Source of the DNA: Pontibacter sp. SGAir0037 | GTDB lineage: Bacteria > Bacteroidota > Bacteroidia > Cytophagales > Hymenobacteraceae | NCBI RefSeq assembly: GCF_005491705.1 | Contig: NZ_CP028092.1 | Coordinates: 2,914,001-2,978,000, forward strand | Length of the DNA stretch: 64,000 bases | Direction: 5' to 3' | Shown: positions 47,865-64,000 of the stretch, piece by piece | How positions within the stretch are numbered: position 1 is the stretch's first letter | Layout: every line of letters starts with the position of its first letter | Made by a program: the position numbers and the translations under genes | The notes under the pieces: generated by a model | Told to the model about the DNA's origin: nothing | The model's database searches: none | What the model saw: the letters and a program-made list of their open reading frames with translations, nothing else

Positions 47865-48474
47865 AAAACAGCAGCAAGAGGAGGTACAGCTGAAATTCAG
47901 GATAAGAGACTAGTAAGGCAGGGGAATCTTTCTGCGCAGCAGGAAAATAGTTTTTGTGTAGCACATCAATTGCCCTGTAAATCAATTTATACACAGCTCT
48001 CGGTGTAATATCCATTATTCGTGCAATGTCTTCGAACTCCATGCTCTGAAAGAACCGCAGGTATATGGCTTCCCGCTGCCTCTCCGATAATTTACTCAGG
48101 GCATTTTCCAGCATTCGCTTCATAGAAGAATTATCTTCGGATCCGATCCACCTGTCTTCAGCAGAGTATTCTGTTAATGTATCTGAAGCTTCCATTACAA
48201 TGGAACGTTGCCGGAGCGTACGCACCAACTCCCGCCTCAGCGAGCGAAAAAGATAATACTTAATGGAATTGGTTGGCCCAAGAGAGGTTCTTTTATGCCA
48301 GAGATTGACAAACAGGTCCTGCAGACAGTCTTTCACCAGTTCTTTGTCATGATTTAAGCTGCAGCCATAACTATAGAGGATGGAAGAGTACGTTTCGTAA
48401 ATAAGGGCATACGCTTCTTCACTACCGGCACGGAAGTTATCCCAAATAATTTCTTCGTTTGCTAAACCCTTCAT
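47851..48474 (-). CDS. ECF RNA polymerase sigma factor
   Basis: 207 residues. Sigma-70 region 2 (YALIYETYSSILYSYGCSLNHDKELVKDCLQDLFVNLWHKR in pieces) and region 4 helix-turn-helix (LSERQREAIYLRFFQSMEFEDIARIMDITPRAVYKLIYRAID). It belongs to the Bacteroidota FecI/HxlR-linked ECF group. After HKNYFPA an unusual tail ends in LYLLLLLFCISF, strongly hydrophobic. It directs RNA polymerase to the polysaccharide locus when the SusC-FecR signal releases it. Confidence 0.94.
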   Translation of the reverse strand: MKGLANEEIIWDNFRAGSEEAYALIYETYSSILYSYGCSLNHDKELVKDCLQDLFVNLWHKRTSLGPTNSIKYYLFRSLRRELVRTLRQRSIVMEASDTLTEYSAEDRWIGSEDNSSMKRMLENALSKLSERQREAIYLRFFQSMEFEDIARIMDITPRAVYKLIYRAIDVLHKNYFPAAQKDSPALLVSYPEFQLYLLLLLFCISF

Positions 48475-49980: not shown

Positions 49981-50532
49981 TTAAGCGCCGGAGCCACTGC
50001 TGCGGCCATTAAAGAAACCGCTTCTGCCCGATCTTGGTGCAGCAGATCGCTGGCGGTACGACTGCACATTCTGGCGCCAGGTATCGGTGCGTTGCATTAC
50101 GCCCGGGTTAGCATAGTAAGCAGGACGGGGTGCTGTCATACGGCCAGCCATAAAACCAAGGCCGCTCCACCACAACACGCTGCCCAGCCCGAAACCACCG
50201 GCTCTGTAGGTGCTTTCATTAGAAGCAACATCCCGCATGCGGTTCTCCAGCGCAAGCCCCTGCAGCGTATCCACTCGCCCATCGCTATACTTCAGAATAG
50301 CCATGCTCTGACCGGGGGCAGTAGTACGCTCATCTGTTATTTTCCATTGGTCAGGGGCTTCTTCTGTAAGTTCTGTTATAATGCCATCCGGTGCGGCTAC
50401 CTCTTCTCCTGTGCTCCAGTCGGCGTTTCTGTTTGCACCGGAGTCGCAGGCAGACAAACCCATACAGGCTGCAGCTGCCACGATAAAGGCATTCCTTCTT
50501 ATATCTCCTATAGATAAGTATCTTTTCTTCAT
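49981..50532 (-). CDS. YgiB-like lipoprotein of unknown function
   Basis: 183 residues. The N-terminus KKRYLSIGDIRRNAFIVAAAACMGLSAC ends in a lipobox, with a basic leader. The centre has GSVLWWSGLGFMAGRMTAP, and the tail is Arg/Ser/Gly-rich (RQRSAAPRSGRSGFFNGRSSGSG). E. coli YgiB has a comparable lipoprotein head, 'MAGYMMGR'-type Gly/Met core and Ser/Arg-rich tail, and is encoded next to ygiC. The resemblance is in layout, and its function is unknown. It is transcribed upstream of the synthase gene. Confidence 0.72.
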   Translation of the reverse strand: MKKRYLSIGDIRRNAFIVAAAACMGLSACDSGANRNADWSTGEEVAAPDGIITELTEEAPDQWKITDERTTAPGQSMAILKYSDGRVDTLQGLALENRMRDVASNESTYRAGGFGLGSVLWWSGLGFMAGRMTAPRPAYYANPGVMQRTDTWRQNVQSYRQRSAAPRSGRSGFFNGRSSGSGA

Positions 50533-50560
50533 TTTTTTTTATACTGATAATGAAATCAAT

Positions 50561-50618
50561 TATTGCTTTAAAACGGCCTCTTTATCTAATATTGCTTTAA
50601 AACGGCCTCTTTATCTAA
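50561..50618. repeat. Perfect 29-bp tandem duplication
   Basis: Bases 50561-50589 and 50590-50618 are identical (each begins TATTGCTTTAAAACGGCC). It lies between murI and the YgiB-like gene. Confidence 0.95.
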
Positions 50619-50660
50619 AGCAGGCAATCCTTCTTATTAGAACCCAGGTTTATTGCTTCC

Positions 50661-51476
50661 TTATTCCCAGAGCGGATAGTGCTCCAGGTGCACCTGTCTT
50701 TTAAAGAAGATACGGGTACTTTCTTCAAAAGAACGTGTAAAATCCGACACATAAAATTTATGGTCGCCCTGCTGCTTTTCCGCCAGCAAACCCTGTTCTT
50801 CCAGGAAAAGCTTTACATGCGCAGCCACAATCTGGCTGGCATCCAGCACATCTACTTTTCCCTGGTAATATTTTTCTATCTGCTTTTTTATAAGCGGATA
50901 ATGGGTACACCCCAGAATAAGAGCCTCCACCTGCTGAAGCTCCGGATCGGAAAGGTAAGCATTGATCACACTTTCTGAAATGGAATCATTAAAAAAGCCT
51001 TCTTCGATCATGGCTGCCAGTAAAGGTGTTGCAACCGACTTTAAATATATATCCAGGTCCAGTTCATCTACCTTTTTCCGGTATACGTTCGAGTTTACAG
51101 TTTGCTTTGTACCAATCAGCCCGATTGTTTTCGCAGGATACGTTTGCCCTATATGCTGTACAATCGGGTCGATTACATTCAGCACCTTTGCTTTACTGCC
51201 CACATACTCTTTTACCAGTTCATAGGCAGCGGCAGAGGCCGAATTGCAGGCAATCAGGATTACTTTGCAATGCTGCCGGATAAGCAGATCACATATTTTT
51301 ACAGCATAAGACTGAATTGCTGCTGTTGATTTATCGCCATAAGGCAGGTGCGCTGTATCACCAAAATAAATTATTCTTTCGTTGGGTAAAACATTAATAA
51401 TAGCCTGCGCTACTGTAAGTCCGCCTATACCGCTATCAAAAACACCGATAGGCCTCTGTTTCATTTCTTGTACCAT
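50661..51476 (-). CDS. murI: Glutamate racemase
   Basis: 271 residues (267 from the second ATG at 51464). Catalytic cysteines lie in ACNSASA (~residue 77) and GCTHYPL (~189); the substrate loop FDSGIGGLTV and YFGDTAHLPYG are also present. It makes D-glutamate for peptidoglycan. A TAACTTCG box 12 bases upstream is a one-mismatch -7 element. Confidence 0.96.
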   Translation of the reverse strand: MVQEMKQRPIGVFDSGIGGLTVAQAIINVLPNERIIYFGDTAHLPYGDKSTAAIQSYAVKICDLLIRQHCKVILIACNSASAAAYELVKEYVGSKAKVLNVIDPIVQHIGQTYPAKTIGLIGTKQTVNSNVYRKKVDELDLDIYLKSVATPLLAAMIEEGFFNDSISESVINAYLSDPELQQVEALILGCTHYPLIKKQIEKYYQGKVDVLDASQIVAAHVKLFLEEQGLLAEKQQGDHKFYVSDFTRSFEESTRIFFKRQVHLEHYPLWE

Positions 51477-51788
51477 AATCGCGAAGTTATGGCAAAAAGT
51501 GTTAAAAGAAATGCTAGCCTGTCATAAGTAAGTTTTAGAATATAGGCATTTATTATAACAGGTGCTGAACGGCAGGTTCAACGACATAAATGATCTACAT
51601 TATTTAACTATAACCATATTATTTTAAATAATATTTTGGTATATAAATAATTTTTTATACTTTTATCCTACTTATTGACGTCTCTGCTGAACAAAAGAAT
51701 AAATGATACTTTCAGCCTGCCCTGCAGCTTCCAACAAAACTATTGGGCTTGCTCCTGGACTTCCGGAGCTGTATAGTGCTACCTTTTT
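51477..51788. other. Divergent AT-rich intergenic region, murI / RDD gene
   Basis: 312 bases without a convincing ORF or RNA. It contains the promoter for the RDD gene (51635-51665) and presumably that of murI. Very A+T-rich between 51590 and 51670. Confidence 0.6.
51635..51665 (+). promoter_or_regulatory. Predicted promoter of the RDD gene
   Basis: TTTG at 51635-51638, 19 bases, then TACTTTTA at 51658-51665. One mismatch in the -7 box (G to A). A start near 51668 gives a leader of about 120 bases. Confidence 0.6.
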
Positions 51789-52298
51789 ATGAAAACACTC
51801 ATGCCTGTAATGGCTTCAACTCCGACTTATAAAAAGCTGTCTCTCTACGGAGGCTTTACTACCCGCCTGGTTGCCTTTTTGGTTGACTCTACTATTATTG
51901 TGTTTTTATACTCTATTATATTGTACTCGGCATCTGACGAAACCATGCACCTTCTTTCGTGGAAAAGCATGATTGCCGATGGCTTTATCAGTTTCAAAGA
52001 AGCCAATTTTATTTTTAGGTCACTATTTTACAATTCTTACTTCCTAGTTCTTCACTGGTTTTATTATACTATTTTCGAATCGTCTCCCAAGCAGGCTACC
52101 ATTGGCAAATTTACACTTGGCATGAAAGTGACCGATATACGCGGAAAGCGCATTAACTTTATTCAAGCCAATTTGCGCTACTTCGCCAAGGCTCTTTCTG
52201 CCCTGCCTTTCTTTTTAGGTTTCTTATTGATTATGAGTAGCAGACGCAAACAAATGCTGCATGACTATATATCAAAAACCATAATAGTATTTAGCTAA
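51789..52298 (+). CDS. RDD-family membrane protein
   Basis: 169 residues (or 165 from an ATG four codons on). Three to four membrane helices. The RDD marks are YGGFTTRLVAFLVDSTIIVFLYSIIL (Arg and the following Asp-Ser), QATIGKFTLGMKVTDIRGKRI and RYFAKALSALPFFLGFLLIMSSRRKQMLHDYISKT. RDD proteins are integral inner-membrane proteins, in some cases Na+/Li+/K+ antiporters; the role here is unknown. Confidence 0.9.
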   Translation: MKTLMPVMASTPTYKKLSLYGGFTTRLVAFLVDSTIIVFLYSIILYSASDETMHLLSWKSMIADGFISFKEANFIFRSLFYNSYFLVLHWFYYTIFESSPKQATIGKFTLGMKVTDIRGKRINFIQANLRYFAKALSALPFFLGFLLIMSSRRKQMLHDYISKTIIVFS

Positions 52299-52370
52299 AA
52301 TATTAACATAATACAAAAATCACCAACCTCCTCTGGTTACCTGCGTATATTCAGATCATAAATTAACAGA

Positions 52371-52378
52371 AAGGAGGA
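52371..52378 (+). promoter_or_regulatory. Strong Shine-Dalgarno before the SPW gene
   Basis: AAGGAGGA at 52371-52378, with GGAGG ending 5 bases before ATG 52383. This is an exceptionally good match for a phylum whose genes rarely use Shine-Dalgarno. Confidence 0.7.
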
Positions 52379-52382
52379 CGTT

Positions 52383-52769
52383 ATGAGATTTATCCCGACA
52401 CGATTCCACGGAATCTTGGATTATATAGTAGGCATTCTGTTGATTGCCTCGCCATGGTTGTTCAATTTTGCTGCAGGTGGCGCAGAAACATGGGTGCCTG
52501 TAGTGATTGGTGCCATGGTATTGATACAAACTATCTTAACCGATTTTGAGGTAGGTATTGTTAAAATGATCCCAATGCCAACACACTTGATGCTCGACTT
52601 TGGTATAGGTGTTATTTTAGCGCTTTCGCCTTGGTTGTTTGGGTTTGCCGATCAGGTATATTTACCACATGTAATTTTCGGTGTATTTTCTATACTGGCA
52701 TCGCTTACCACACACCGTGTGCCAAGCCGTGCATACAACACTAACAACGTACAAAAAGAAAGAATTTAA
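52383..52769 (+). CDS. SPW-repeat membrane protein
   Basis: 128 residues, four membrane helices. The SPW motif occurs twice (IASPWLFNFA near residue 22, and LSPWLFGFAD near residue 82), each after a helix with GILDYIVGI / LMLDFGIGV. The symmetrical halves look like an internal duplication. SPW family members have no settled function. A very strong Shine-Dalgarno precedes it and a strong terminator follows, so it seems monocistronic and well expressed. Confidence 0.9.
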   Translation: MRFIPTRFHGILDYIVGILLIASPWLFNFAAGGAETWVPVVIGAMVLIQTILTDFEVGIVKMIPMPTHLMLDFGIGVILALSPWLFGFADQVYLPHVIFGVFSILASLTTHRVPSRAYNTNNVQKERI

Positions 52770-52788
52770 AGAAGACATCTCTTTGTAA

Positions 52789-52827
52789 AATAAAACAGGC
52801 TAGCCATTTTGGCTAGCCTGTTTTATT
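52789..52827 (+). terminator. Terminator of the SPW gene
   Basis: An 18-bp stem (52789-52806 with 52810-52827), 3-base loop. T-rich tail follows. It is close to the ABC-F promoter. Confidence 0.9.
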
Positions 52828-52854
52828 TTACAGCCTACAAAGCTTTTAAATGCT

Positions 52855-52862
52855 TAAATTTG
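52855..52862 (+). promoter_or_regulatory. Predicted -7 box directly before the ABC-F gene
   Basis: TAAATTTG, ending 3 bases before the ATG at 52866, the same spacing as at guaA. No good -33 TTTG. Confidence 0.45.
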
Positions 52863-52865
52863 TAT

Positions 52866-54749
52866 ATGAATTATTTATCTGCAGAAAATATATCTAAAAG
52901 CTTCAGCGAACGCTGGCTGTTTAAAAACTTAAACTTCGGTATCAGCCAGGGCCAGCGTGTGGCGCTGGTGGGTGTAAACGGCTCAGGCAAAACAACATTA
53001 CTGAATGTGCTGGCAGGAAAAATTCCGCCCGACGAAGGCAGTGTAAGTGTACGCAAGGAGGTGAGCATAGGCTATTTGGGCCAGAATCCTGAATTTGACG
53101 AGGAAGCGACTGTACAGCAAGCCATTTTTTCGAACCAGAACGAGGTGCTGGAGACTATTAAGGCATACGAAGCTGCCATTGCCGATACCAACACCAGCTC
53201 TGCTAAAATGCAGCAACTGATGGAGCGTATGGATGAACTCCAGGCCTGGGATTTTGAAGTGAAGGTAAAGCAGATCCTTTCGAAACTTGGTATTCATAAC
53301 CTCGACAACTACATAAAGCATCTTTCCGGAGGCCAGCGCAAACGAATTGCCATGGCCCGTGTACTGATAGAAGAACCGAACATGCTTATCCTGGACGAGC
53401 CAACCAACCACCTCGACCTGGAAACAATTGAGTGGCTGGAGAATTTGCTCTCTACCCAGAATACGACCCTGCTGATGGTAACCCACGACCGTTATTTTCT
53501 GGATAAGGTAGCCAATGAGATTGCTGAACTGGATAATGGCCAGCTCTATACTTACAAGGGCAACTATAGTTACTTTGTCGAGAAAAAAGCAGAGCGCGAG
53601 GAAATGGCTGTTGCCGAAACAGAAAAGGCCCGTAACCTGATGCGCAAAGAACTGGACTGGATCAGGCGACAGCCCAAAGCCAGGGGGACCAAAGCAAAAT
53701 ACCGGGTAGATGCGTTTGAGGAGCTAAAAGAAAAAGCTGCCAAGAAAACAGCTGCTCCACAACTGGAGCTATCTGTTAAAACAACCCGCCAGGGAGGCAA
53801 AGTAATAGAGGTAGAGCATATTTCGAAAACATTCGGAGACAAGAAAATTGTAGACGATTTTACTTATGTCTTCAAAAAGAAAGACCGCTTAGGTATAGTC
53901 GGGCCAAATGGTGCAGGCAAATCTACTTTCCTGAACATGCTAACCGGTAAGCTTGCGCCAGACCAAGGCACTATTATAGCAGGACAAACAACTATTTTCG
54001 GCTATTATACCCAGGATGAGCTTACCTTCCGCGACGACCAGCGCGTGATTGACATTGTAAAGGAAATAGCCGAAGTAGTTGAAATGGCTAACGGAGAAGT
54101 GATCACTGCATCGCAGTTCCTACAGCATTTCCAGTTTCCGCCAGCTCAACAGTATACGTTCGTCAGCAAACTGAGTGGCGGCGAAAAAAGAAGGCTTCAG
54201 TTACTGCGTGTACTCATCAAAAACCCGAATTTCCTTATTCTGGATGAGCCAACCAACGACCTCGATATCATCACACTGAATATTCTGGAAGATTTTCTCC
54301 TGAATTTCGGAGGGTGCCTGCTTATTGTTTCACACGACCGCTACTTTATGGACAGGCTGGTAGAGCATTTGTTTGTATTTGAGGGAGAAGGCAACATCCG
54401 AAACTTTCCGGGCAACTATACCGATTACCGCGAATGGCTTAAAGAACAGGAAAAGCAGGAACAGGAAGTTAAGAAACCTGCCGCATCAGCTCCTGTATTG
54501 AAACAACAGCAGCCTGCAGCCTCATCGGGCAAGCGAAAAGCATCTTATAACGAGAAGAAAGAGTATGAGCAACTCGAAAAAGAGATTCCTAAACTGGAGG
54601 CACGTAAGACCGAAGTTATTAACCTGATGAATGCCGGCACCACCACCGACCACGAGCAGCTTACGGCCTGGGCAAAGGAACTGGAGCAGCTAAACGAAGA
54701 ACTGGAAGAGAAGGAAATGCGCTGGCTCGAATTATCTGAAGTTATTTAA
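52866..54749 (+). CDS. ABC-F family ATPase (Uup/EttA-like)
   Basis: 627 residues from ATG 52866 (MNYLSAENISKSF); an upstream in-frame ATG would start inside the preceding terminator. Two ABC domains: Walker A GVNGSGKTT and GPNGAGKST; signatures LSGGQRKR and LSGGEKRR; Walker B LILDEPTNHLD and LILDEPTNDLD. A linker with IRRQPKARGTKAKYR joins them and a charged C-terminal coiled coil ends the protein, as in Uup. No membrane segments. ABC-F proteins act on ribosomes or DNA damage, not in transport. Convergent with the unknown gene at 54837. Confidence 0.93.
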   Translation: MNYLSAENISKSFSERWLFKNLNFGISQGQRVALVGVNGSGKTTLLNVLAGKIPPDEGSVSVRKEVSIGYLGQNPEFDEEATVQQAIFSNQNEVLETIKAYEAAIADTNTSSAKMQQLMERMDELQAWDFEVKVKQILSKLGIHNLDNYIKHLSGGQRKRIAMARVLIEEPNMLILDEPTNHLDLETIEWLENLLSTQNTTLLMVTHDRYFLDKVANEIAELDNGQLYTYKGNYSYFVEKKAEREEMAVAETEKARNLMRKELDWIRRQPKARGTKAKYRVDAFEELKEKAAKKTAAPQLELSVKTTRQGGKVIEVEHISKTFGDKKIVDDFTYVFKKKDRLGIVGPNGAGKSTFLNMLTGKLAPDQGTIIAGQTTIFGYYTQDELTFRDDQRVIDIVKEIAEVVEMANGEVITASQFLQHFQFPPAQQYTFVSKLSGGEKRRLQLLRVLIKNPNFLILDEPTNDLDIITLNILEDFLLNFGGCLLIVSHDRYFMDRLVEHLFVFEGEGNIRNFPGNYTDYREWLKEQEKQEQEVKKPAASAPVLKQQQPAASSGKRKASYNEKKEYEQLEKEIPKLEARKTEVINLMNAGTTTDHEQLTAWAKELEQLNEELEEKEMRWLELSEVI

Positions 54750-54763
54750 GCCCCTTATAGCAT

Positions 54764-54810
54764 TAAGCCCCGCTTCTATAGATATACATCTGCTATAGAA
54801 GCGGGGCTTA
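54764..54810. terminator. Bidirectional terminator after the ABC-F gene
   Basis: An 18-bp perfect stem (54764-54781 with 54793-54810), 11-base loop, between convergent genes. Confidence 0.88.
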
Positions 54811-54836
54811 TGTATTGCATTACATTTTGCCATCAG

Positions 54837-55526
54837 CTAATGTGTTAGCTGGTGGTTCATCATAAAGCCGAGTTTTTTATTTGAAGTGAGGTGCATGTTA
54901 TCGAACTTCTGCTTTAAACTTATCTTTTCGATATCACTTACATCCTGCCCCATTAGATCATTGTTTACTGCGGCTATCATAGCACTTTCAACTATTATGC
55001 GAAGATCTTCGTCCTTAAGCGGGTTTTTGGAGAAGCCCTCGAATGGCAAATCCATCTGCTTTACTCCTTCCAGGCAAAAATGCTTTTCAAAATTGATCAG
55101 CATGCGCCCAATCAGGTAACCCGGATCATCCAGGCGACCATACTTGATGGAGTCGGCCATAAAATTATAAGCCATGATATGGCCAAAGAACCTTCGCCTG
55201 AAATCTTCCTGCACATAGCTGCTCTGCATAATTTTATAATCGTCAGGAAACGTAATGATGTTGGAGTGCATTATAAAGATGAGCAGGTCGCCAGAGAACT
55301 TAATATTGAATTCGTATTCGTTAATCTCTTTATACTCAATAATTATGTTAGCATCGTATTGTGTGATACGCTCAGAAAGTTCATCTACTACTTCCCGGGC
55401 TACTTCCTTCAGTTTTGCAAATGTCTCTTTTGTATTGCGGAATATGAGCTGTTTAGTCGCAGACTTTTGCTGCATCCCGTTTACAATACTATCTAGTCTG
55501 TCTTCCATAGAGGTGTCGAATATCAT
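54837..55526 (-). CDS. Conserved-looking protein of unknown function
   Basis: 229 residues; MIFDTSMEDRLDSIVNG (the second Met is an alternative start). No signal peptide or membrane helix. It looks like a folded soluble protein with helices (KETFAKLKEVAREVVDEL) then strands (ANIIIEYKEINEYEFNIKFSGDLLIFIMHSNIITF), and a helical end. I do not recognise any catalytic motif. Good coding character and its own terminator support it as real. Confidence 0.7.
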   Translation of the reverse strand: MIFDTSMEDRLDSIVNGMQQKSATKQLIFRNTKETFAKLKEVAREVVDELSERITQYDANIIIEYKEINEYEFNIKFSGDLLIFIMHSNIITFPDDYKIMQSSYVQEDFRRRFFGHIMAYNFMADSIKYGRLDDPGYLIGRMLINFEKHFCLEGVKQMDLPFEGFSKNPLKDEDLRIIVESAMIAAVNNDLMGQDVSDIEKISLKQKFDNMHLTSNKKLGFMMNHQLTH

Positions 55527-55676
55527 TTGGTCCTTGCCTTATGTACAGTAATTTAAGTTACTAGGTTTAAAATTAGCCATGGCTGCAAAACAACTCATAA
55601 GGCTTGATTTGTACTCCGAAGATGCTTCAAGCAAGCAGCACCGCCTATAATACGGGGCTTTCGGCATTTCTACAAA

Positions 55677-56432
55677 TCAGGCATCAAGCTCCTGTAACTG
55701 CTCCTCGTTCAGCTCCAGGTTATGATAGACTCTTTGTATATCGTCATCATCTTCAAGCGCCTCGATAAACTGCAAAATCTTTCTTACTGCCTCATTGTCT
55801 TCCACCATCACTGTTGTTTTCGGGATACGCTGCAGTTCGGCACTTTCCAATTCAAGCTCCAACTCTTCCACCTTCTTTTGCATTGCCCCAAAATCTTCCA
55901 TCGCACAGTATACCGTTATATACTCTTCATCAAACACAACTTCCTCAGCGCCGGCATCAATCATCAGGAGCGTAAATTCCTCCTCATCCGGGAGCTCATC
56001 TGCCTTATTTTTGAGAACGAACACGCCTTTCCTGTCGAAAATAAACTCCAGAGAGCCATTGGTACCTAAACTACCGTTGTACTTATTGTAAAGCGTGCGA
56101 AGGTTCTGTACCGTCCGGTTAATGTTATCTGTCATGGCTTCCGCAAATATGGCCACACCATTTGTAGCATAGCCCTCGTAGCTAACTTCCATGTAATTGG
56201 CATCGTTCCCCTCTCCTTTGCGTATGGCCCGCTCTATATTATCTTTTGGCATGTTAACAGCCTTTGCACTTTGTATAGCCAGGCGCAGGCGAGGGTTACC
56301 GGCAGGATCAGGACCTCCCTCTTTGGAGGCAACCGTTATCTCTTTAATTAGCTTGGTAAAGATTTTAGAGCGCTTCGCGTCTAAGGCTCCTTTTTTTCGT
56401 TTAATCTGCGACCATTTGTTGTGCCCAGCCAT
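55677..56432 (-). CDS. YebC/PmpR-family protein
   Basis: 251 residues from ATG 56432 (MAGHNKWSQIKRKKGALDAKRSKIF), the invariant family N-terminus; the upstream frame is open but not part of the family. Further marks: GNPRLRLAIQSAKAVNMPKDNIERAIRKG, GYATNGVAIFAEAMTDN, NGSLGTNGSLEFIFDRKG. Historically called transcriptional regulators; YebC-type proteins have more recently been linked to relief of ribosome stalling at proline stretches. The acidic tail EDDDDIQ is typical. Confidence 0.95.
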   Translation of the reverse strand: MAGHNKWSQIKRKKGALDAKRSKIFTKLIKEITVASKEGGPDPAGNPRLRLAIQSAKAVNMPKDNIERAIRKGEGNDANYMEVSYEGYATNGVAIFAEAMTDNINRTVQNLRTLYNKYNGSLGTNGSLEFIFDRKGVFVLKNKADELPDEEEFTLLMIDAGAEEVVFDEEYITVYCAMEDFGAMQKKVEELELELESAELQRIPKTTVMVEDNEAVRKILQFIEALEDDDDIQRVYHNLELNEEQLQELDA

Positions 56433-56593
56433 TGTATCAGAAATGCTTTGTTGTAATGATATGGGTTTCTCTTTACCTGCTAACACCCCTGAAGGTTATT
56501 TCCACAGGTTTTGTCAGCTCAAAATTAACAAAATGTAAATTTTTATTGAGGCTGCTTTGCTGAAGCAATAATTTTGCAGGAGCCTGCAAAATA

Positions 56594-56629
56594 AAAAGAG
56601 AGTCCTGCTCACGAGCAGGACTCTCTTTT
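56594..56629 (-). terminator. Strong terminator downstream of the 27-residue ORF
   Basis: A 17-bp stem (56594-56610 with 56613-56629) with T-rich tail on the minus strand. A second hairpin, ATTTTGCAGG/CCTGCAAAAT, follows at 56571-56592. No longer gene would need it: it ends the unit carrying the small ORF. Confidence 0.85.
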
Positions 56630-56656
56630 CATGTCTGGTATGACGGAGTCTATATC

Positions 56657-56740
56657 CTATAAAAATAGAAAGATCGCATTAATTATGTTAACACCAAGCA
56701 ACAAATAGAAGTTTGGTGATTCTTGTATGGCTTTTTTCAT
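56657..56740 (-). CDS. Candidate 27-residue small membrane peptide
   Basis: The minus-strand frame starts at ATG 56740 (MKKAIQESPNFY) and ends NAIFLFL-stop at 56657. It has a basic/polar head of about ten residues followed by ~16 hydrophobic residues, enough for a short membrane helix. It stops 27 bases before a very good intrinsic terminator, and no other gene ends there. This context, rather than length, supports it. I recognise no family. A noncoding small RNA with the same terminator is the alternative. Confidence 0.55.
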   Translation of the reverse strand: MKKAIQESPNFYLLLGVNIINAIFLFL

Positions 56741-57151
56741 ATCCTATTTCTAGTATTATATTTTCAAATTAAGTCTATTGTAATTACAAAAGCTTTATGG
56801 AACATTACGTCGTAAAATTGGCTTTGTTTCACCTTAAATATAACTTAACATATAGTAAAATAAATATAAGGATATTATTATATAAGCTCTATCAATACGC
56901 AACCAGGCATTTGCAGACAGTTGTGGCAGCCTGTAAGCATGAGCAGCAAGAACTAAAATTGAATTATTCTCACAGCCTCACATCTCCTTCTGGCATTTAT
57001 CAAACGTAAATAGCTCAGGCGTATAACCTAAAACATGATTAGTTTGCACGAAGCGTATTGTTAGCAACATAATTATTGTATCTTTACTTTAATCTAAACT
57101 GTATTTGCTGAAGCAAATAGGTTTTTTCAAAAAGCAAAATCATTAGAAACT
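56741..57151. other. AT-rich intergenic region before the helicase gene
   Basis: 411 bases. It holds the helicase promoter (57058-57086) and probably the promoter for the small minus-strand unit. A 70-codon plus-strand frame (56797-57009) has poor coding character. Confidence 0.5.
57058..57086 (+). promoter_or_regulatory. Predicted promoter of the DEAD-box helicase gene
   Basis: TTG at 57058-57060, 18 bases, then TATCTTTA at 57079-57086 (one mismatch to TAnnTTTG). A leader of ~60 bases would follow; cold-inducible helicases of this type are often controlled in the leader, though nothing diagnostic is visible. Confidence 0.45.
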
Positions 57152-58573
57152 TTGGACTTTCGTTCGTTTAACTTACACGAAGATGTAATAACTGGTATAG
57201 AATCGATGGGATACAATTCCCCTACACCAGTTCAACAGCAGGCTATTCCGCTCATCTTGGATCAGAAAGATATTATAGCCTGTGCGCAAACGGGTACCGG
57301 CAAAACTGCTGCTTACCTTCTGCCACTTATAGACCGTATTTCACATGCAAATGCCAGCCACACCAGCACCTTGGTACTGGTGCCAACCCGGGAACTCGCC
57401 AAGCAAATAGACGAGCAGGTGGAAGGCTTTGGCTATTTCGCATCGGTTAGCTCTATCGCCATTTACGGTGGCAACAAAGGCGGCGAGTGGGACCAACAGA
57501 AACGGGCTCTTACCTCCGGTGCCGATATTATAATAGCTACGCCAGGCCGGCTAATGTCGCACATGGCGCTTGGTTATGTAAAACTCGACCAGCTCGACTA
57601 CCTGGTTTTAGACGAAGCCGACAAGATGCTGGACATGGGTTTTATGGACGATATACTTAAAATTGTACGCCAGTTACCTACCAAGCGCCAAACGCTTTTA
57701 TTCTCTGCTACCATGCCTCGCAAAATCAGGGAGTTGGCAAAGCAGATTCTGCAGCAACCTGAAGAGATAAACCTGGCTATTTCGAAACCAGCCGAAGGTA
57801 TAGACCAGCGCCTATACCTAACCTTCGATAACCAAAAGCTACCTCTTCTGGAGCATTTACTGCGCCAGTTGGAAGTACAGAGCATGATCATCTTTACTTC
57901 CCGAAAATCGAATGTAAGCCAGATTGTCAGATCTTTACAGAAGATGGGCTTTGAAGCGGAGGGCATACAATCCGACATGAACCAGGATGAGCGGGAGAAG
58001 GCACTACAAGGGTTCAAAAACAAACAATATCAGATACTGGTAGCGACCGATATTCTTTCCAGGGGTATTGATATAGACAGCCTGAGCCACGTGGTAAACT
58101 TTGACATGCCACAGGATGCCGAAGATTATGTGCACCGGGTAGGACGTACTGCCAGAGCTGCATCAACCGGAATGGCCATTACCTTTGTAAATGAAAAAGA
58201 CATGTACCGGGTGCAGAAGGTAGAGCGGCTTATAGAGCGCGAACTTCCGAAACTGCCTTTACCGGAAGACTTTGGTCCAGGCCCTGCCTATGATCCTACA
58301 CGCCGGGATGACAAAAGCGGCAGAAACAAAAGCAGGAACCCGAATGCCAGACCCGATAACAAAGACAAACGCAGCAAGCACCATCGGGGAGAAAGTAAAA
58401 ACCGGTCCAGGCCAAAGCCGGAACAGGCTGGCACAGCACCTACAGCACAAGCTGTAGAACAGGCACAGGCAGGACAGGCACCAGCTTCAGGTCAACCTCG
58501 CAAAAACAATAGAAACAGAAATAGAAACCGCAACAAACCTTTGGGACCAAAACCTGAAAAAACTGACAGTTAA
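57152..58573 (+). CDS. DEAD-box RNA helicase, RhlE-like
   Basis: 473 residues from a TTG start at 57152 (M/L-DFRSFNLHEDVITGI). No in-frame ATG exists between it and the upstream stop. Helicase motifs: Q motif GYNSPTPVQQQAIP, I AQTGTGKT, Ia PTRELA, II VLDEADKMLD, III SATMP, IV IIFTSRKS, V ATDILSRGIDI, VI HRVGRTARA. The last ~95 residues are a low-complexity basic/Asn/Gln tail (NRNRNRNKP) that likely binds RNA. It remodels RNA in ribosome assembly or cold adaptation. Confidence 0.94.
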   Translation: MDFRSFNLHEDVITGIESMGYNSPTPVQQQAIPLILDQKDIIACAQTGTGKTAAYLLPLIDRISHANASHTSTLVLVPTRELAKQIDEQVEGFGYFASVSSIAIYGGNKGGEWDQQKRALTSGADIIIATPGRLMSHMALGYVKLDQLDYLVLDEADKMLDMGFMDDILKIVRQLPTKRQTLLFSATMPRKIRELAKQILQQPEEINLAISKPAEGIDQRLYLTFDNQKLPLLEHLLRQLEVQSMIIFTSRKSNVSQIVRSLQKMGFEAEGIQSDMNQDEREKALQGFKNKQYQILVATDILSRGIDIDSLSHVVNFDMPQDAEDYVHRVGRTARAASTGMAITFVNEKDMYRVQKVERLIERELPKLPLPEDFGPGPAYDPTRRDDKSGRNKSRNPNARPDNKDKRSKHHRGESKNRSRPKPEQAGTAPTAQAVEQAQAGQAPASGQPRKNNRNRNRNRNKPLGPKPEKTDS

Positions 58574-58575
58574 TG

Positions 58576-58604
58576 AAAAGCCTTCCGAATGGAAGGCTTT
58601 TTTG
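58576..58604 (+). terminator. Terminator of the DEAD-box helicase gene
   Basis: AAAAGCCTTCC (58576-58586), GAAT, GGAAGGCTTTT (58591-58601), then T-run. Confidence 0.9.
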
Positions 58605-58774
58605 TTCTTCAACAAGTAGTTTATATCCTATATAGCCTATACTATATAAAGCGAGATACCGTTTTAGTATTTATATAATACAGTAACAATCATTATAACA
58701 TCATACAAAATTGTTTTAGCATTACCGAGCTAAATCGTTTAATAGTCTTAATCGAAGATTATTTTTAATTAATT

Positions 58775-58794
58775 TTAACTAAAAAAATAGTTAA
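58775..58794. promoter_or_regulatory. Candidate operator: TTAACTA-N6-TAGTTAA
   Basis: Seven-base perfect half-sites (58775-58781 and 58788-58794) around six A residues. It occupies the -33 zone of the promoter with -7 box TATCTTTG at 58810. A dimeric repressor or activator could bind here; the ACTA/TAGT core resembles BlaI/CopY-type sites only loosely. Confidence 0.45.
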
Positions 58795-58809
58795 TGTTAG
58801 AACAATTGT

Positions 58810-58817
58810 TATCTTTG
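58810..58817 (+). promoter_or_regulatory. Predicted -7 box of the receptor-like gene
   Basis: TATCTTTG, an exact TAnnTTTG match, giving a leader of about 100 bases before ATG 58924. No TTTG at -33. Confidence 0.55.
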
Positions 58818-58923
58818 GATAAATAATTTACCTACCGGCAGTAAAGTGCGAGAGTGAGAAAGAGCAAGTGAAGTCTGCAGTATAGGCTATACCTCGTTTT
58901 CTAATTTTTCAACAATAAATGTT

Positions 58924-61383
58924 ATGAGACAAGCTTTCCTCCTCTTCTTTCTCTGCTGCTGTTTTACAGCATCCTATGCACAAACCATTTTACCAGTTTC
59001 GGATGGCGTTATAAAAGGAGTTGTAGCAGACTCCGCCAATGCCGCTAAATTAGGTTTTGTTACAGTTGTACTAAAAGAGGCTGGCAAAGATCAGGCTATC
59101 AAAAGTACCTACACCAAAGACAACGGCTCTTTTGAAATAAGTGGTTTACCGTACAACAAGTACCAGCTCATTATAAACTACATGGGCTATCAACGCAAAA
59201 CCATCGATATTGCAAACCTCTCCGCCACCCATACGACCGTCGATCTGGGGAGCATTCTTCTCACCTCTACAACCACACAGTTAAAAGAGGTAGAAGTAAC
59301 TGCCGAAAAGCTGCTGGTAACGCAGGATGTAGATAAAATTGCCTATAACGTTGATGCAGACCCCGAAAGCCAGACACTCACAGCCCTGGACATGCTGCGG
59401 AAAGTACCACTTTTAAGTGTGGATGCCGAAGACAATATTCAGTTGAATGGCAGTGGCAGCTACAGAATCCTTATTAATGGTAAAACCTCGTCTCTTTTTG
59501 TGCGCAACCCGAAAGATGTGTTTAAAAGTATGCCCGCCAGCACGATCAAAAGCATCGAGGTTATCACCAACCCTCCTTCCAAATATGAGGCAGAGGGTGT
59601 AGGCGGCATCATTAACATTATCACACACAAGAAAAACATTGGAGGCTATAATGGTTCAATTAACCTGGGAGTAAGCGAACCAAGAGGAGTAAACGCAGGT
59701 GGTTATTTAACAGCCAAAGCAGGCAAATTCGGTTTCTCAGGCTACTTCGGCCAAAGCACCTACTACAGCCCTACAAGCAGAAACTATTCGCTACGGGAAG
59801 ACCGGATATTTAATACCGAATTAGAACAAATCGGCAGAAGCAACAGCGAAGGAAACTTCCAGTATTTTAGTGGTGAGGTAAGTTTTGAGCTCGACACCCT
59901 TAACCTGTTTACAGCCAACTATAACTTTAACATAAGCAACGGAGAAAATACCAATTTCCAGGACGTAAACCAGGTGGATTATACAGGCCAGCCAATTCGT
60001 GCTTTCTCCCGCATTTCAGATGGCACCAACGAATGGAGTGGCAACGACTTTGGTGTTGATTACCAGCGCACCTTTAAAAAGAGCAAAGAGCAGCTTTTTA
60101 CCCTTTCTTATAAGTACAATTCCAGCGGTAACGGTAGCTTATCTAACTTCAGAACCGAGCCTCGCCTAAACTACAGCTCTGAAGCTTATGCTACCGAAAA
60201 CGATGGCAGATCGACCGAACATACTGTTCAGGCAGACTATGTACAGCCAATTAAGAAACACACCTTCGAAGTTGGTGTAAAAGGTATTTTCAGGCTTAAC
60301 AGCAGCGACTATTTTTATAAACGGTTTACAAACATTGATCTGGGAACATACGAGCTTGTACCGGAACTGAGCAACAACTTCGACTACAGGCAGGACATTT
60401 ATGCAGCTTACTCTTCCATTAACCTGAAAAAAGACAAATGGGGCATGAAGGTGGGCCTCCGTTTAGAAGAAACTGTAATTGATGCAAATTTCAGATCGTC
60501 TAAAAGGTTTGTGGAACAGGATTACTTTAACCCGATCCCGAACGTAACCATATCGCGCATGCTCAAAAGTATGAGCTCAGTCCGGTTTTCTTATACACAG
60601 CGAATTGAACGACCGAGCCTGTACCTGATTAACCCATACGTAAATGCGATAGATACTTTTAACATCAGCTATGGCAACCCTAAACTGGAGCCAGCCACTA
60701 ACAATGTATTTACCCTGGCCTATAATACGTTTATAAAGGGCTCGTCTATCAATGCCAGTCTGTTCCATAACTTTACCAATAACTCCATCCAGCGCTATAC
60801 CACTTTAGGTTCTGATTCTATCGCCAGAACTACCTACGAAAACATTGGCAAAAACAGGACCTATGGCCTATCGCTTTTCGGAAACACTACCTTATTTAAG
60901 AAACTCAGTATAAACCTGAATGGTACGCTTAATTATGTTCAGCTGAATAGCTTTGTTGATGGCCAGCCACAGGATAACAGCGGCTTAACGGCCAATATCT
61001 TCGCCTATAGCAGCTATCGGTTTGAGAAAGACTGGAGACTGAGCGGCAACATAGGCTATAACTCGCCGAGTGTATTGCTGCAAGGCAGATCAGCTGGCTA
61101 TATGTTTAACAGCCTGTCTCTGAGTAAGCAATTCCTGAAAGAAAATAAGGCCACCGTTAATTTTTCCGTCTCCAACCCTTTCCAGAAAGAACGCCGTTAC
61201 TTTAACGAAGTACAAGGGCCTGAATTTACACAGCTCATGGAATCGTATTTTATTCAAAGGAGGTTTAACCTGTCTTTTAACTATCGCTTTGGTAAGCTGA
61301 AAGGCGATATTGCCCGCAAGAAACGCGGTATCAAAAACGACGACTTATCTGGCGGCGGCGGAGAACAAAAATCGGGCAACTAA
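58924..61383 (+). CDS. Outer-membrane beta-barrel receptor-like protein (TonB-receptor superfamily)
   Basis: 819 residues with a signal peptide (MRQAFLLFFLCCCFTASYAQ). A carboxypeptidase-regulatory-like domain spans ~28-105 (GVIKGVVADSANAAKLGFVTVVLKE). A plug-like region follows (ALDMLRKVPLLSVDAEDNIQLNGSGSYRILINGK... IEVITNPPSKYEAEGVGGIINIIT). The rest is a large barrel ending LSFNYRFGKLKGD and a polar tail. It belongs to the Bacteroidota 'outer membrane beta-barrel family' near TonB receptors. It has no SusD partner, so the ligand is unknown. Confidence 0.9.
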   Translation: MRQAFLLFFLCCCFTASYAQTILPVSDGVIKGVVADSANAAKLGFVTVVLKEAGKDQAIKSTYTKDNGSFEISGLPYNKYQLIINYMGYQRKTIDIANLSATHTTVDLGSILLTSTTTQLKEVEVTAEKLLVTQDVDKIAYNVDADPESQTLTALDMLRKVPLLSVDAEDNIQLNGSGSYRILINGKTSSLFVRNPKDVFKSMPASTIKSIEVITNPPSKYEAEGVGGIINIITHKKNIGGYNGSINLGVSEPRGVNAGGYLTAKAGKFGFSGYFGQSTYYSPTSRNYSLREDRIFNTELEQIGRSNSEGNFQYFSGEVSFELDTLNLFTANYNFNISNGENTNFQDVNQVDYTGQPIRAFSRISDGTNEWSGNDFGVDYQRTFKKSKEQLFTLSYKYNSSGNGSLSNFRTEPRLNYSSEAYATENDGRSTEHTVQADYVQPIKKHTFEVGVKGIFRLNSSDYFYKRFTNIDLGTYELVPELSNNFDYRQDIYAAYSSINLKKDKWGMKVGLRLEETVIDANFRSSKRFVEQDYFNPIPNVTISRMLKSMSSVRFSYTQRIERPSLYLINPYVNAIDTFNISYGNPKLEPATNNVFTLAYNTFIKGSSINASLFHNFTNNSIQRYTTLGSDSIARTTYENIGKNRTYGLSLFGNTTLFKKLSINLNGTLNYVQLNSFVDGQPQDNSGLTANIFAYSSYRFEKDWRLSGNIGYNSPSVLLQGRSAGYMFNSLSLSKQFLKENKATVNFSVSNPFQKERRYFNEVQGPEFTQLMESYFIQRRFNLSFNYRFGKLKGDIARKKRGIKNDDLSGGGGEQKSGN

Positions 61384-61390
61384 ACCTGGT

Positions 61391-61445
61391 TAAGCCATAA
61401 ACAAAGAGGGCCGCTTTAAAAGCGGCCCTCTTTGTTTATGGCTTA
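61391..61445. terminator. Very long bidirectional terminator
   Basis: A 27-bp arm (61391-61417) is matched by 61419-61445. It lies between the convergent receptor-like gene and the small gene at 61453. Confidence 0.9.
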
Positions 61446-61452
61446 GATAAAA

Positions 61453-61743
61453 CTAAGCAGATATTTTAAATTTCTTCAGGTCTTCTACTGGTCCAATTTG
61501 CGTCTTTGCCACCGTCATTCCCCATCTTCTCAGGTGTACTTCAACGGGAGCCATGTTTTTAGTGAAATCAGAAGAGATTACTTTGCCATAAAACTCTTTT
61601 GCTTCTTTGCTGGCACCTCTCTCAAAAGAATGCTTCGACTGGTTTTTGTTAACAGGCATACCAGGTATAATCTGGTAATTAGTACAAATTACTTCATACT
61701 TTGGAAGAAAAGGCTTTACAACCTTCTTAAGCAATGTTTTCAT
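61453..61743 (-). CDS. Small basic protein of unknown function
   Basis: 96 residues, net basic: MKTLLKKVVKPFLPKYEVICTN, ending DLKKFKISA. No signal peptide or membrane helix is evident. Good coding character, a bidirectional terminator 7 bases after its stop and a separate upstream spacer support it. I do not recognise the family. Confidence 0.6.
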   Translation of the reverse strand: MKTLLKKVVKPFLPKYEVICTNYQIIPGMPVNKNQSKHSFERGASKEAKEFYGKVISSDFTKNMAPVEVHLRRWGMTVAKTQIGPVEDLKKFKISA

Positions 61744-61965
61744 GGATTAATTCAATTATTTAAGATTGGCTCTTACAATATAAATCATTAATTTATTGTA
61801 ATGCAAAAGACAATTAAAATAATTTATCGGTTCCTGAAAATCGGCTACACATCAAAATTTAATAAAAATAAAAGCTTGTAAAAACCCGCAGCCTTTTAAC
61901 TATACCTCTGTAAAATTATATTTTATTTAATATTAGCTGCGCCTTTGAATACCAGATTACTAATT
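61744..61965. other. AT-rich spacer between the small basic gene and menA
   Basis: 222 bases, no gene seen. Confidence 0.5.
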
Positions 61966-62901
61966 TTATAGCAACTGCCCTATTCCGAAAAGTAGTACAA
62001 ACAGCAAGGTAGAAAGCGCCATTTGCTTCAGGTAAGGATCCAGCTGCTGTGATGTTTGCTTCCTCCAAACGTTTATACCATTTAACAGCAAAAGCGGCAG
62101 CACCAGCAAGAATAAGAATTGCCACCAGCTGGCAAAGTTCAGGGCTGCATAAACCACCGCGCTTAACACACCTCCTGCCAAAAGAAACAGATGGTATATG
62201 CGGGCACGCACAGGCCCCAAACGAACAGGTATAGATATTTTTCCGGCTAAACGATCAGAATTAATATCGCGGATATTATTTACATTCAGCACCGCTGTGG
62301 AGAAGAAGCCGCAAACCAACGCAGGCAGTACCACATCGGCGTGAAATACCTGCGCCTGCAAAAAATAGGTACCCAGCACTCCTACCAATCCAAAGAAAAT
62401 AAATACCGAAATATCGCCCAGCCCTGCATAGCCGTAAGGTTTGGAACCAGCCGTATAGTTGATGGCAGCCCAAATACAGGCCAGTCCTATTCCCAGGAAC
62501 AGCAATGCCAGCAGCATTCCCTCCGTGCCAAATGCCACCCACAATAGCAGCAACCCCGAAATCAGGGAAAGAAGGCTAAAAACAATCATGCCCTTCTTCA
62601 TATGCGCTGCCTTAATCAGGCCCGCCTGTACAGCCCGTTTCGGCCCTTCCCGGTGCACACTATCTGCCCCATGCACAGAATCGCCATAGTCGTTGGCCAG
62701 GTTAGACAGTATTTGCAAAAAAAGCGTGGTTAGCACACACAGGCTAACAATAGCGCCATTAAAGGCTCCATGAGCCGCAGCCATAAAGCCCCCCATCGCT
62801 ATACAGGAAAATGCCAGAGGCAGCGTACGCGGCCTAAAAGCGGAAATCCAGGCCCTGACAAGGCCTGGATTTGATGCTGGTTGTGTTGATGTATATTCCA
62901 A
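61966..62901 (-). CDS. menA: 1,4-dihydroxy-2-naphthoate polyprenyltransferase
   Basis: 311 residues from a TTG start at 62901 (M/L-EYTSTQPASNPGLVRAWISAFRPRTL); no ATG lies nearby upstream. UbiA-family membrane protein with ~8-9 helices. The two Asp-rich motifs are NDYGDSVHGAD (prenyl-diphosphate binding) and NIRDINSDRLAGK. 'SAFRPRTLPLAFSCI' is the MenA-type N-terminus. It attaches the isoprenoid tail in menaquinone synthesis, providing the quinone used by the complex I encoded in this window. Confidence 0.93.
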   Translation of the reverse strand: MEYTSTQPASNPGLVRAWISAFRPRTLPLAFSCIAMGGFMAAAHGAFNGAIVSLCVLTTLFLQILSNLANDYGDSVHGADSVHREGPKRAVQAGLIKAAHMKKGMIVFSLLSLISGLLLLWVAFGTEGMLLALLFLGIGLACIWAAINYTAGSKPYGYAGLGDISVFIFFGLVGVLGTYFLQAQVFHADVVLPALVCGFFSTAVLNVNNIRDINSDRLAGKISIPVRLGPVRARIYHLFLLAGGVLSAVVYAALNFASWWQFLFLLVLPLLLLNGINVWRKQTSQQLDPYLKQMALSTLLFVLLFGIGQLL

Positions 62902-62979
62902 AATAGTTGCTTCGTTCCATTACCGCTGCACAGTTTATGCTGGCAGCAATTTAAGAGTGCAGTAAACGAACTGCCCGGT

Positions 62980-63588
62980 TTACTTTATAGCAGCGATCAG
63001 CTCCTCCCCCATTGGGTTCACTTTAGAAGGGAAGAATGCCACTACCTTGCCCTGCTCGTTTATAAGATACTTGCAGAAGTTCCAGCTAGGTTTATCCTTG
63101 TTAGGTGAGTTTTGCTCTAACCAGGTATAAAGAGGTGCTCTGTCGTCGCCCACCACTGATATTTTTTCGAATAGCGGAAACGTAACGCCAAAGTTCTTCT
63201 GGCAGAAAGCTGCAATATCCTCGTTAGAACCCGGCTCCTGGCCCCCAAAATTATTGGCAGGGAAGCCAAGCACTATAACTTTGTTGCCGTAAGTTTCATG
63301 CAGCTTCTGAAGGTCAGCATACTGTTTGGTGTACCCGCACTCAGAGGCTGTGTTTACCACCAGCACCTTTTTTCCTTTATATTGCGAGAAATCAACATCT
63401 TTTCCATCCACTGACTTCATTTTGAAGCTGTAAAAGCCCTTGGTTTCAGCACTTGTATTTTCCATAATTGTATTTCGGTTAGTAATATCACTTATTGGCG
63501 ATAAATCAGGAGCAGCCCACGAAACTACAGCAGCTAATAACAATATAAATACCAGTGTCTGGAATAAGAATTTAGCTTCTCTTGTCAT
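62980..63588 (-). CDS. Glutathione peroxidase-family thiol peroxidase, membrane-anchored or exported
   Basis: 202 residues. The N-terminus holds a hydrophobic stretch (FLFQTLVFILLLAAVVSWAAP), so the enzyme faces the periplasm; ordinary GPx proteins (~160) lack it. Catalytic Cys lies in NTASECGYTKQY, Gln in FPANNFGGQEPGSN and Trp/Asn in PSWNFCKYL. Such Cys-type enzymes usually use thioredoxin rather than glutathione. It removes hydroperoxides. Confidence 0.92.
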   Translation of the reverse strand: MTREAKFLFQTLVFILLLAAVVSWAAPDLSPISDITNRNTIMENTSAETKGFYSFKMKSVDGKDVDFSQYKGKKVLVVNTASECGYTKQYADLQKLHETYGNKVIVLGFPANNFGGQEPGSNEDIAAFCQKNFGVTFPLFEKISVVGDDRAPLYTWLEQNSPNKDKPSWNFCKYLINEQGKVVAFFPSKVNPMGEELIAAIK

Positions 63589-63701
63589 TTTAGTTCAAAT
63601 TCAGAATTGTTCTACGAATTATGAATATTATAGGAAATAACCTAATACCTAAACGACTTTTTTTTCTTTATCACTAACTTCAGACAGAATAAAGAAAAAG
63701 G

Positions 63702-64000
63702 CTACATGCGCTCCGGCACTTCTATTCCTAGTAAACTCATGCTTACACGAATAAAGCGGGCTACCGCTCCAGACAGTGCTATTCTAAAACAACGAGCCTC
63801 CTCATTAGTTTCATTAAAAATCGAAATTTCCTGATAAAAACGATTATAGGCTTTTGCTAACTCATACGCATAGTTTGCAATGATAGACGGCGCATACAAA
63901 TTGCCCGCCTCTTTTACTGTATTGGAGAAGTTTACGAGCTGGGCAATTACCTCTTGCTCTGTCTCGTGCAGCTCTGCAAACTGTTCAAAAGCAGCTATAT
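63702..64000 (-). CDS. argS: Arginyl-tRNA synthetase, C-terminal part (5' end outside window)
   Basis: The frame is open to base 64000, so this is the last ~99 residues. It shows the DALR anticodon-binding domain: FEQFAELHETEQEVIAQLVNF, IANYAYELAKAYNRFYQEI, and the terminal LLGIEVPERM, typical of ArgRS. The gene's start and catalytic core lie to the right, outside the window. It charges tRNA-Arg. Confidence 0.9.
   Translation of the reverse strand, partial: IAAFEQFAELHETEQEVIAQLVNFSNTVKEAGNLYAPSIIANYAYELAKAYNRFYQEISIFNETNEEARCFRIALSGAVARFIRVSMSLLGIEVPERM

Follow-up and report, generated by a model that had tools for sequence, protein, structure and literature searches.

Introduction

YohP from Escherichia coli, a protein of 27 residues with a single hydrophobic span, represents a class of small membrane proteins that has been tied to stress responses (PMC7549839). 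MgrB (47 residues), an inhibitor of the sensor kinase PhoQ, is described as belonging to a stress regulon and, small membrane protein that it is, as binding a partner in the membrane (PMC8404706, PMC10576120). The promoters of ECF sigma factors are marked by AAC at −35 and CGT at −10, and the ECF41 sigma factors, by the account given in the same source, appear to control a single transcript from promoters with a spacer of 16 ± 1 (PMC3426412), which offers a precedent for an ECF element with, in essence, one transcription unit to its name. For the Bacteroidota, in which TAnnTTTG is the sequence recognized by the primary sigma factor, few ECF recognition motifs were known according to a 2020 account (PMC7366714). 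One promoter class of Flavobacterium with CGT in its −10 region has been assigned to an ECF sigma factor; this class, SM6 (CGT-box) of Flavobacterium psychrophilum, is reported to drive membrane proteins together with the putative regulatory RNA Rfp11, and its regulon is said to include type IX secretion genes (PMC9723704).

The DNA analysed here, referred to as the window, is a stretch of 64,000 nucleotides from Pontibacter sp. SGAir0037 in which a first-pass annotation had pointed to a short minus-strand unit next to a helicase gene. Comparison of 50 Pontibacter genomes brings out, at the level of sequence, a gene, its reading frame, a promoter element, a terminator and the retention of the whole throughout the genus. 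We propose, with a probability of roughly 0.7, that the unit encodes an ECF-controlled, monocistronic membrane microprotein with a single span, which would bind a membrane partner or itself. It has the length of YohP and likewise a single hydrophobic span, but the regulator and the host phylum differ, and the two are likened by these features and not by sequence. MgrB is longer, whereas the Pontibacter microprotein has nothing beyond its membrane span and its binding to a partner is presumed. Where the ECF41 promoters are described with a −35 of TGTCACA and enzymes as targets, the −35 is here TGNAACATT and the target a microprotein, and the likeness to SM6, a class of the same phylum, is one of promoter type. 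We class the gene as a new family among the single-span stress-type microproteins, a kind that is already known. Our searches of the open-access literature brought up no account of Pontibacter small proteins, and nothing on a Pontibacter sigma factor together with a small RNA.

A short gene under selection for its protein product

The features of the locus, with coordinates in the window, are as follows.

56805–56831, minus strand: predicted ECF-type promoter element, with −35 TGAAAC at 56831-56826, a 16-nt spacer and −10 CGTAA at 56809-56805
56741–56804, minus strand: 5′ leader, its sequence unconserved in the alignment and its start placed provisionally near 56798
56657–56740, minus strand, stop included: 27-codon ORF MKKAIQESPNFYLLLGVNIINAIFLFL, intact in 50/50 genomes of the genus, pN/pS 0.17
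56588–56629, minus strand: predicted intrinsic terminator, with arms at 56629-56613 and 56610-56594 and a T-rich tail at 56597-56588
56571–56592, minus strand: second hairpin of 9 pairs with a T-containing tail, found by the consensus scanner
55677–56432, minus strand: YebC/TACO1 family gene by Pfam, the downstream neighbour in 29/50 genomes
57152–58573, plus strand: divergent DEAD-box RNA helicase gene, with a TTG start as listed and Pfam matches to DEAD and Helicase_C

The window contains, as the first-pass annotation had claimed, a minus-strand frame that opens with ATG at 56740 and closes after 27 codons with TAG at 56657, and this frame is kept in all 50 Pontibacter genomes with zero in-frame stops; the remaining two forward frames are interrupted by stops in 50/50 and 37/50 of them. 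The 50 copies comprise 48 distinct DNA and 41 distinct protein sequences, the peptide having 27 residues in 29 genomes and 28 in 21. Mean pairwise differences at codon positions 1, 2 and 3 are 0.214, 0.068 and 0.515, and pN/pS is 0.173 over the 48 distinct DNA sequences and 0.160 in 104 close pairs; with synonymous sites near saturation, the real ratio is probably lower. Conservation that ignores the reading frame, which had been named beforehand as the observation that would speak against a gene, is the reverse of this pattern, in which third codon positions are the most variable and pN/pS is low. Judged by these substitutions the 27-codon ORF codes for a protein on which purifying selection acts strongly, and is a gene that ordinary gene finding would miss; genes so short tend to escape annotation. 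A whole-genome DNA search with a 341-base region returned the locus and otherwise only short matches of the chance type.

Whether the product is a membrane protein or a small RNA had been left as a choice in the first-pass annotation. The codon-position pattern and the pN/pS value favour the protein, and the RNA half of the proposal loses ground in that neither the 5′ leader nor the terminator stem has a common sequence. A small regulatory RNA in which the reading frame is incidental would suit the short predicted transcript and its strong terminator, and similar promoter elements do precede probable sRNAs in Pontibacter genomes (see below), but it is the amino acids that are conserved and not the leader and hairpin sequences, the stops in the other forward frames tell against it, and no Rfam family reaches its gathering threshold in positions 50000-64000 of the window. 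We hold it to be the least probable of the readings weighed here.

A basic head and an uncharged hydrophobic span

The polar head and hydrophobic tail of the original description reappear across relatives, the head being basic and the C-terminal half hydrophobic and free of charge. The short head is followed by an SPN turn, and the hydrophobic stretch after it reaches or nearly reaches the C-terminus and has two asparagines within it. In the 41 distinct proteins M1, P9, N10, L14, N18, I19, N21 and F24 are invariant, K2, K3, I5, S8, L13, G16 and A22 are near-invariant (37 to 40 of 41; Gly16 in 39/41), and residues 11-26 are free of charge. In 50/50 genomes the highest-scoring 17-residue Kyte-Doolittle window reaches 2.07 or more and starts at residue 11 or 12. 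With no more than 50 residues, one hydrophobic span and a conserved frame, the peptide has the make-up of a small single-span membrane protein and is predicted to be one; the predicted 17-residue span, which ends at the C-terminus, is short, and this counts against the reading that we favour.

By the positive-inside rule the basic head would lie on the cytoplasmic side. Asparagines within a membrane span promote helix association. By a moment test the conserved residues do not gather significantly on one face of a helix (p = 0.65), so that a one-sided binding surface is unsupported. The window peptide matched 0 families in Pfam, and no PDB chain gave a credible match (best E 0.47); of 26 members, 0 matched PHROGs and 1 matched NCBIfam (YmgF, E 0.014), a match judged not credible.

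An ECF-type promoter element

The spacer up to the helicase was aligned for every genome except G027, which was omitted because its spacer is longer. The alignment (49 genomes, all entering the consensus, with 27 rows printed) proved mostly unconserved with two conserved islands. The island close to the helicase could be that gene's own TAnnTTTG-like box. The second, TG(A/T/C)AACATT-N11-GGCGTAA, lies 75-100 nt upstream of the small ORF, and the pattern AAC-N16/17-CGTA is found upstream of the ORF in 50/50 genomes as against 0/100 control windows further upstream and 0/50 opposite strands, counts that are unchanged when either C or G is allowed before GTA. With AAC at −35, CGT at −10 and a spacer of 16 ± 1, the element has the composition of an ECF promoter, and transcription would start near 56798, about 7 nt past the −10. 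The promoter originally guessed at, made up of TTTTG and a TAATTTG-like box within 56741-56830, did not hold: nothing alike is conserved in the alignment, and the conserved element is of the ECF type and lies inside 56831-56805. A sigma-A promoter for the small ORF was rejected in view of these unconserved boxes. Scored with a matrix derived from the very 46 sites to which it was applied, the window's own promoter reaches 14.3 bits and is the third weakest, with 42/46 sites at 21 bits or more.

The genome that carries the window yields 20 matches to the Sigma70_r4_2 profile, at least one of which, L149, reads as a response regulator and not as a sigma factor. No copy of the promoter element was found upstream of any of the 20, within 250-300 nt of the earliest possible start codon. 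An autoregulated sigma gene, usual for ECF factors though not universal, was sought among these matches and none was found, so that it is the motif itself that carries the ECF assignment. The gene offers a way to approach an ECF sigma factor, and the targets it controls, within the Bacteroidota.

Two further observations concern the surroundings of the element. Its distance to the helicase start is 310-333 nt in 48/50 genomes, with mostly unconserved sequence between, the exceptions being G151 (427 nt) and G027 (677 nt). One of the Sigma70_r4_2 matches falls inside the window at 47971-48117 (G000 C1:2961971-2962117), about 9 kb away, and has no ECF-like element upstream.

A separate cistron with its own terminator

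A 17-bp terminator had been placed 27 bases past the stop codon, and a perfect inverted repeat is indeed found there with a T-rich tail after it; its 17 complementary bases with 2 between them amount in practice to 16 pairs and a tetraloop. The consensus scanner does not return this terminator, probably because its stem can be extended into the T-run. By our scorer a G+C hairpin with a T-run stands behind the stop in 46/50 genomes, a score reached by 0/250 mononucleotide shuffles; among the genomes missed, G002 and G060 have by eye an imperfect hairpin and a T-run, and G017 and G144 none that is clear. The stem sequences differ widely among genomes of the genus, as expected for a terminator and not for a conserved RNA. 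Its recurrence behind the ORF in the 46 genomes, despite a differing next gene, bears out the earlier suggestion that it serves the short transcript. The second hairpin reported after it was also found, by the scanner, at 56592-56571; a perfect hairpin of at least 9 pairs within 62-120 nt past the stop occurs in 1/50 genomes, the window's own alone.

The divergent helicase adjoins the small ORF in 50/50 genomes of the genus. On the other side the neighbour changes: ten of the 21 genomes that lack a downstream yebC were read, and in eight of these the gene found there has a product with ELASVLAGPSVGQFFAELGA in it, the remaining two having other genes. A variable downstream gene combined with a promoter, frame and terminator that are kept points to a separate cistron and not to a leader, and on this ground a leader or attenuator for yebC was rejected. 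The more general possibility of a leader peptide, belonging to an attenuator or acting as a nascent-chain sensor that controls whichever gene lies downstream, draws on the order of short ORF, terminator and same-strand gene, but sits poorly with a yebC gene present in only 29/50 genomes and replaced, in eight of the ten other genomes read, by the gene for the ELASVLAGPSVGQFFAELGA-containing product, and with a protein sequence that is conserved where the leader RNA is not; we consider it very improbable.

Apparent restriction to the genus Pontibacter

A search with the peptide was positive in 37/37 genomes of the same genus and gave matches in three of 22 genomes of other families, the best with E 0.46. 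A profile search of 150 genomes of the family was positive in 50/50 genomes of the genus (E 1.9e-12 to 1.4e-19), the 35 named loci that it found being all from Pontibacter, and gave no credible match in the 100 genomes of five other genera. A match in G169 (E 0.002) was set aside, covering 14 residues in a frame without a start codon where one would be expected, as were the second, weak matches in G095 (read) and G027 (judged from the table), which are partial and do not look like relatives. Outside the genus the profile gave only weak matches in 16 of 291 genomes of the order and 13 of 395 of the phylum, the best with E 1.8e-5 and internal stops. The nine that were read look like chance, since their frames are broken by stops or lack a start codon, or only a part is matched; the other 20 were judged from tables alone. 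A 28-residue frame opening with MKK at L213 diverges in its second half and was not judged a relative.

A related peptide and the promoter element are both missing from the helicase locus in 21 genomes of five other genera. Upstream of some of these helicases there are unrelated short hydrophobic frames, so that an analogue without sequence likeness may exist. A YebC-like protein, by sequence resemblance, adjoins the helicase in 3 of the 21. As far as sampled, then, sequence searches confine the gene to Pontibacter, and it may have been born or have arrived at the base of the genus. A gene of one genus that is kept in 50/50 genomes could serve to study how a microprotein comes to resist being lost.

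This distribution bears on two other views of the product. TisB and Hok are short hydrophobic toxins that damage the membrane and are held in check by antisense RNA. A type I toxin-like peptide of this sort would agree with the size, the hydrophobicity and the stress-type promoter of the Pontibacter gene, but the latter has one locus match in 50/50 genomes, always adjoining the helicase (the second G095 and G027 matches being partial), and zero matches in 72,556 plasmid records. In the 49-genome alignment no conserved antisense element was seen, the ECF-type motif, the one pattern sought there, occurs on 0/50 opposite strands of the locus, and single residues seem to be under tighter constraint than a pore-forming helix would call for. 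We regard a toxin as unlikely. A real microprotein that serves constitutively as a CydX-like subunit in a membrane complex, instead of as a regulator induced by stress, would explain the strict conservation of its residues and of its length (27 or 28) in 50/50 genomes; the lack of a credible match in the 100 genomes of other genera of the family is unlike what a subunit of a core enzyme would lead one to expect, and the promoter element does not belong to the housekeeping class. This too we find unlikely, if marginally less so than a toxin.

Proposed mode of action

The comparative evidence, which takes in frame, promoter, terminator and neighbourhood, is unusually complete for a gene of this size, and from it we infer a course of events for the favoured ECF-controlled microprotein that runs from transcription and translation through membrane insertion and topology to partner binding under a stress signal. 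RNA polymerase with an ECF sigma factor would start about 57 nt before the ATG, and transcription would end at the terminator behind the stop codon to give an mRNA of roughly 210 nt that encodes the membrane microprotein of 27-28 residues. The first ten of these (residues 1-10, MKKxIQxSPN) would stay on the cytoplasmic side and residues 11-27 would cross the inner membrane and end within it, insertion being perhaps post-translational as presumed by likeness to YohP. Asn18, Asn21, Phe24 and Gly16 may then hold the microprotein to a membrane partner or to itself, and the activity of the partner would be adjusted for as long as the ECF sigma factor is active.

Other sites of the element and a probable sRNA pair

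A strict form of the element pattern has 31 sites in the 50 genomes, 29 of them at the small gene, against 6 for a reversed-pattern control; a one-mismatch pattern has 59 sites, 22 of them elsewhere (control 24), and a third pattern 30 sites, 7 of them elsewhere (control 5). Sites elsewhere are thus present at the number expected by chance, and it is recurrence in relatives alone that singles out one further locus. In a non-systematic look at five contexts of strict or near-strict sites and then at fourteen contexts, this locus was the only one seen to recur in a relative: the site recurred in three genomes, directly behind another gene that by eye has DEAD-box helicase motifs.

L266:1575-1880 (G118), also L265, L267, L321 and others: probable tandem sRNA pair behind the second helicase-motif gene

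DNA resembling this locus is present in 50/50 genomes, in some as 35-47 bases only, and the same gene end precedes it in 47/50. Two AAC-N16/17-(C/G)GT(A/T) elements spaced 110-165 nt apart are found at 38/50 loci and on 0/50 opposite strands; a single permissive match says little, occurring in 50/50 genomes but on 24/50 opposite strands too. The window's own genome has the second element only. The hairpins that end the two short units show at least two Watson-Crick types at 10/15 and 9/16 predicted pairs, computed in 40 and 39 genomes with 10 and 11 uncovered, and the conservation of their loops is partly by selection, as loop words served as anchors. Four of the loci were tested against Rfam and gave no match. 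The two units are probably sRNAs, presumably of some 90 and 110 nt.

The E. coli sigma-E response has a small-RNA and a small-protein arm. A Bacteroidota counterpart of it might be sought in a Pontibacter ECF regulon made up largely of small products, namely the microprotein, genus-born and possibly de novo, and the tandem sRNAs behind another DEAD-box helicase gene, with AAC-N16/17-CGT(A/T) promoters and terminators of their own; we put this forward tentatively, as a possibility well short of even odds.

Three sites were seen in other settings. At L273:1205-2371 (G118 C1:1537500-1541500) one genome has a strict element 87 nt upstream of a gene of the glycosyltransferase 61 family, which may be due to chance or mark a further member of the regulon. 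ECF-like elements also stand before a 177-residue lipoprotein-like ORF without a Pfam match at L268 (G006), and at L270 (G026) before a short stretch that ends in a hairpin and holds no long ORF.
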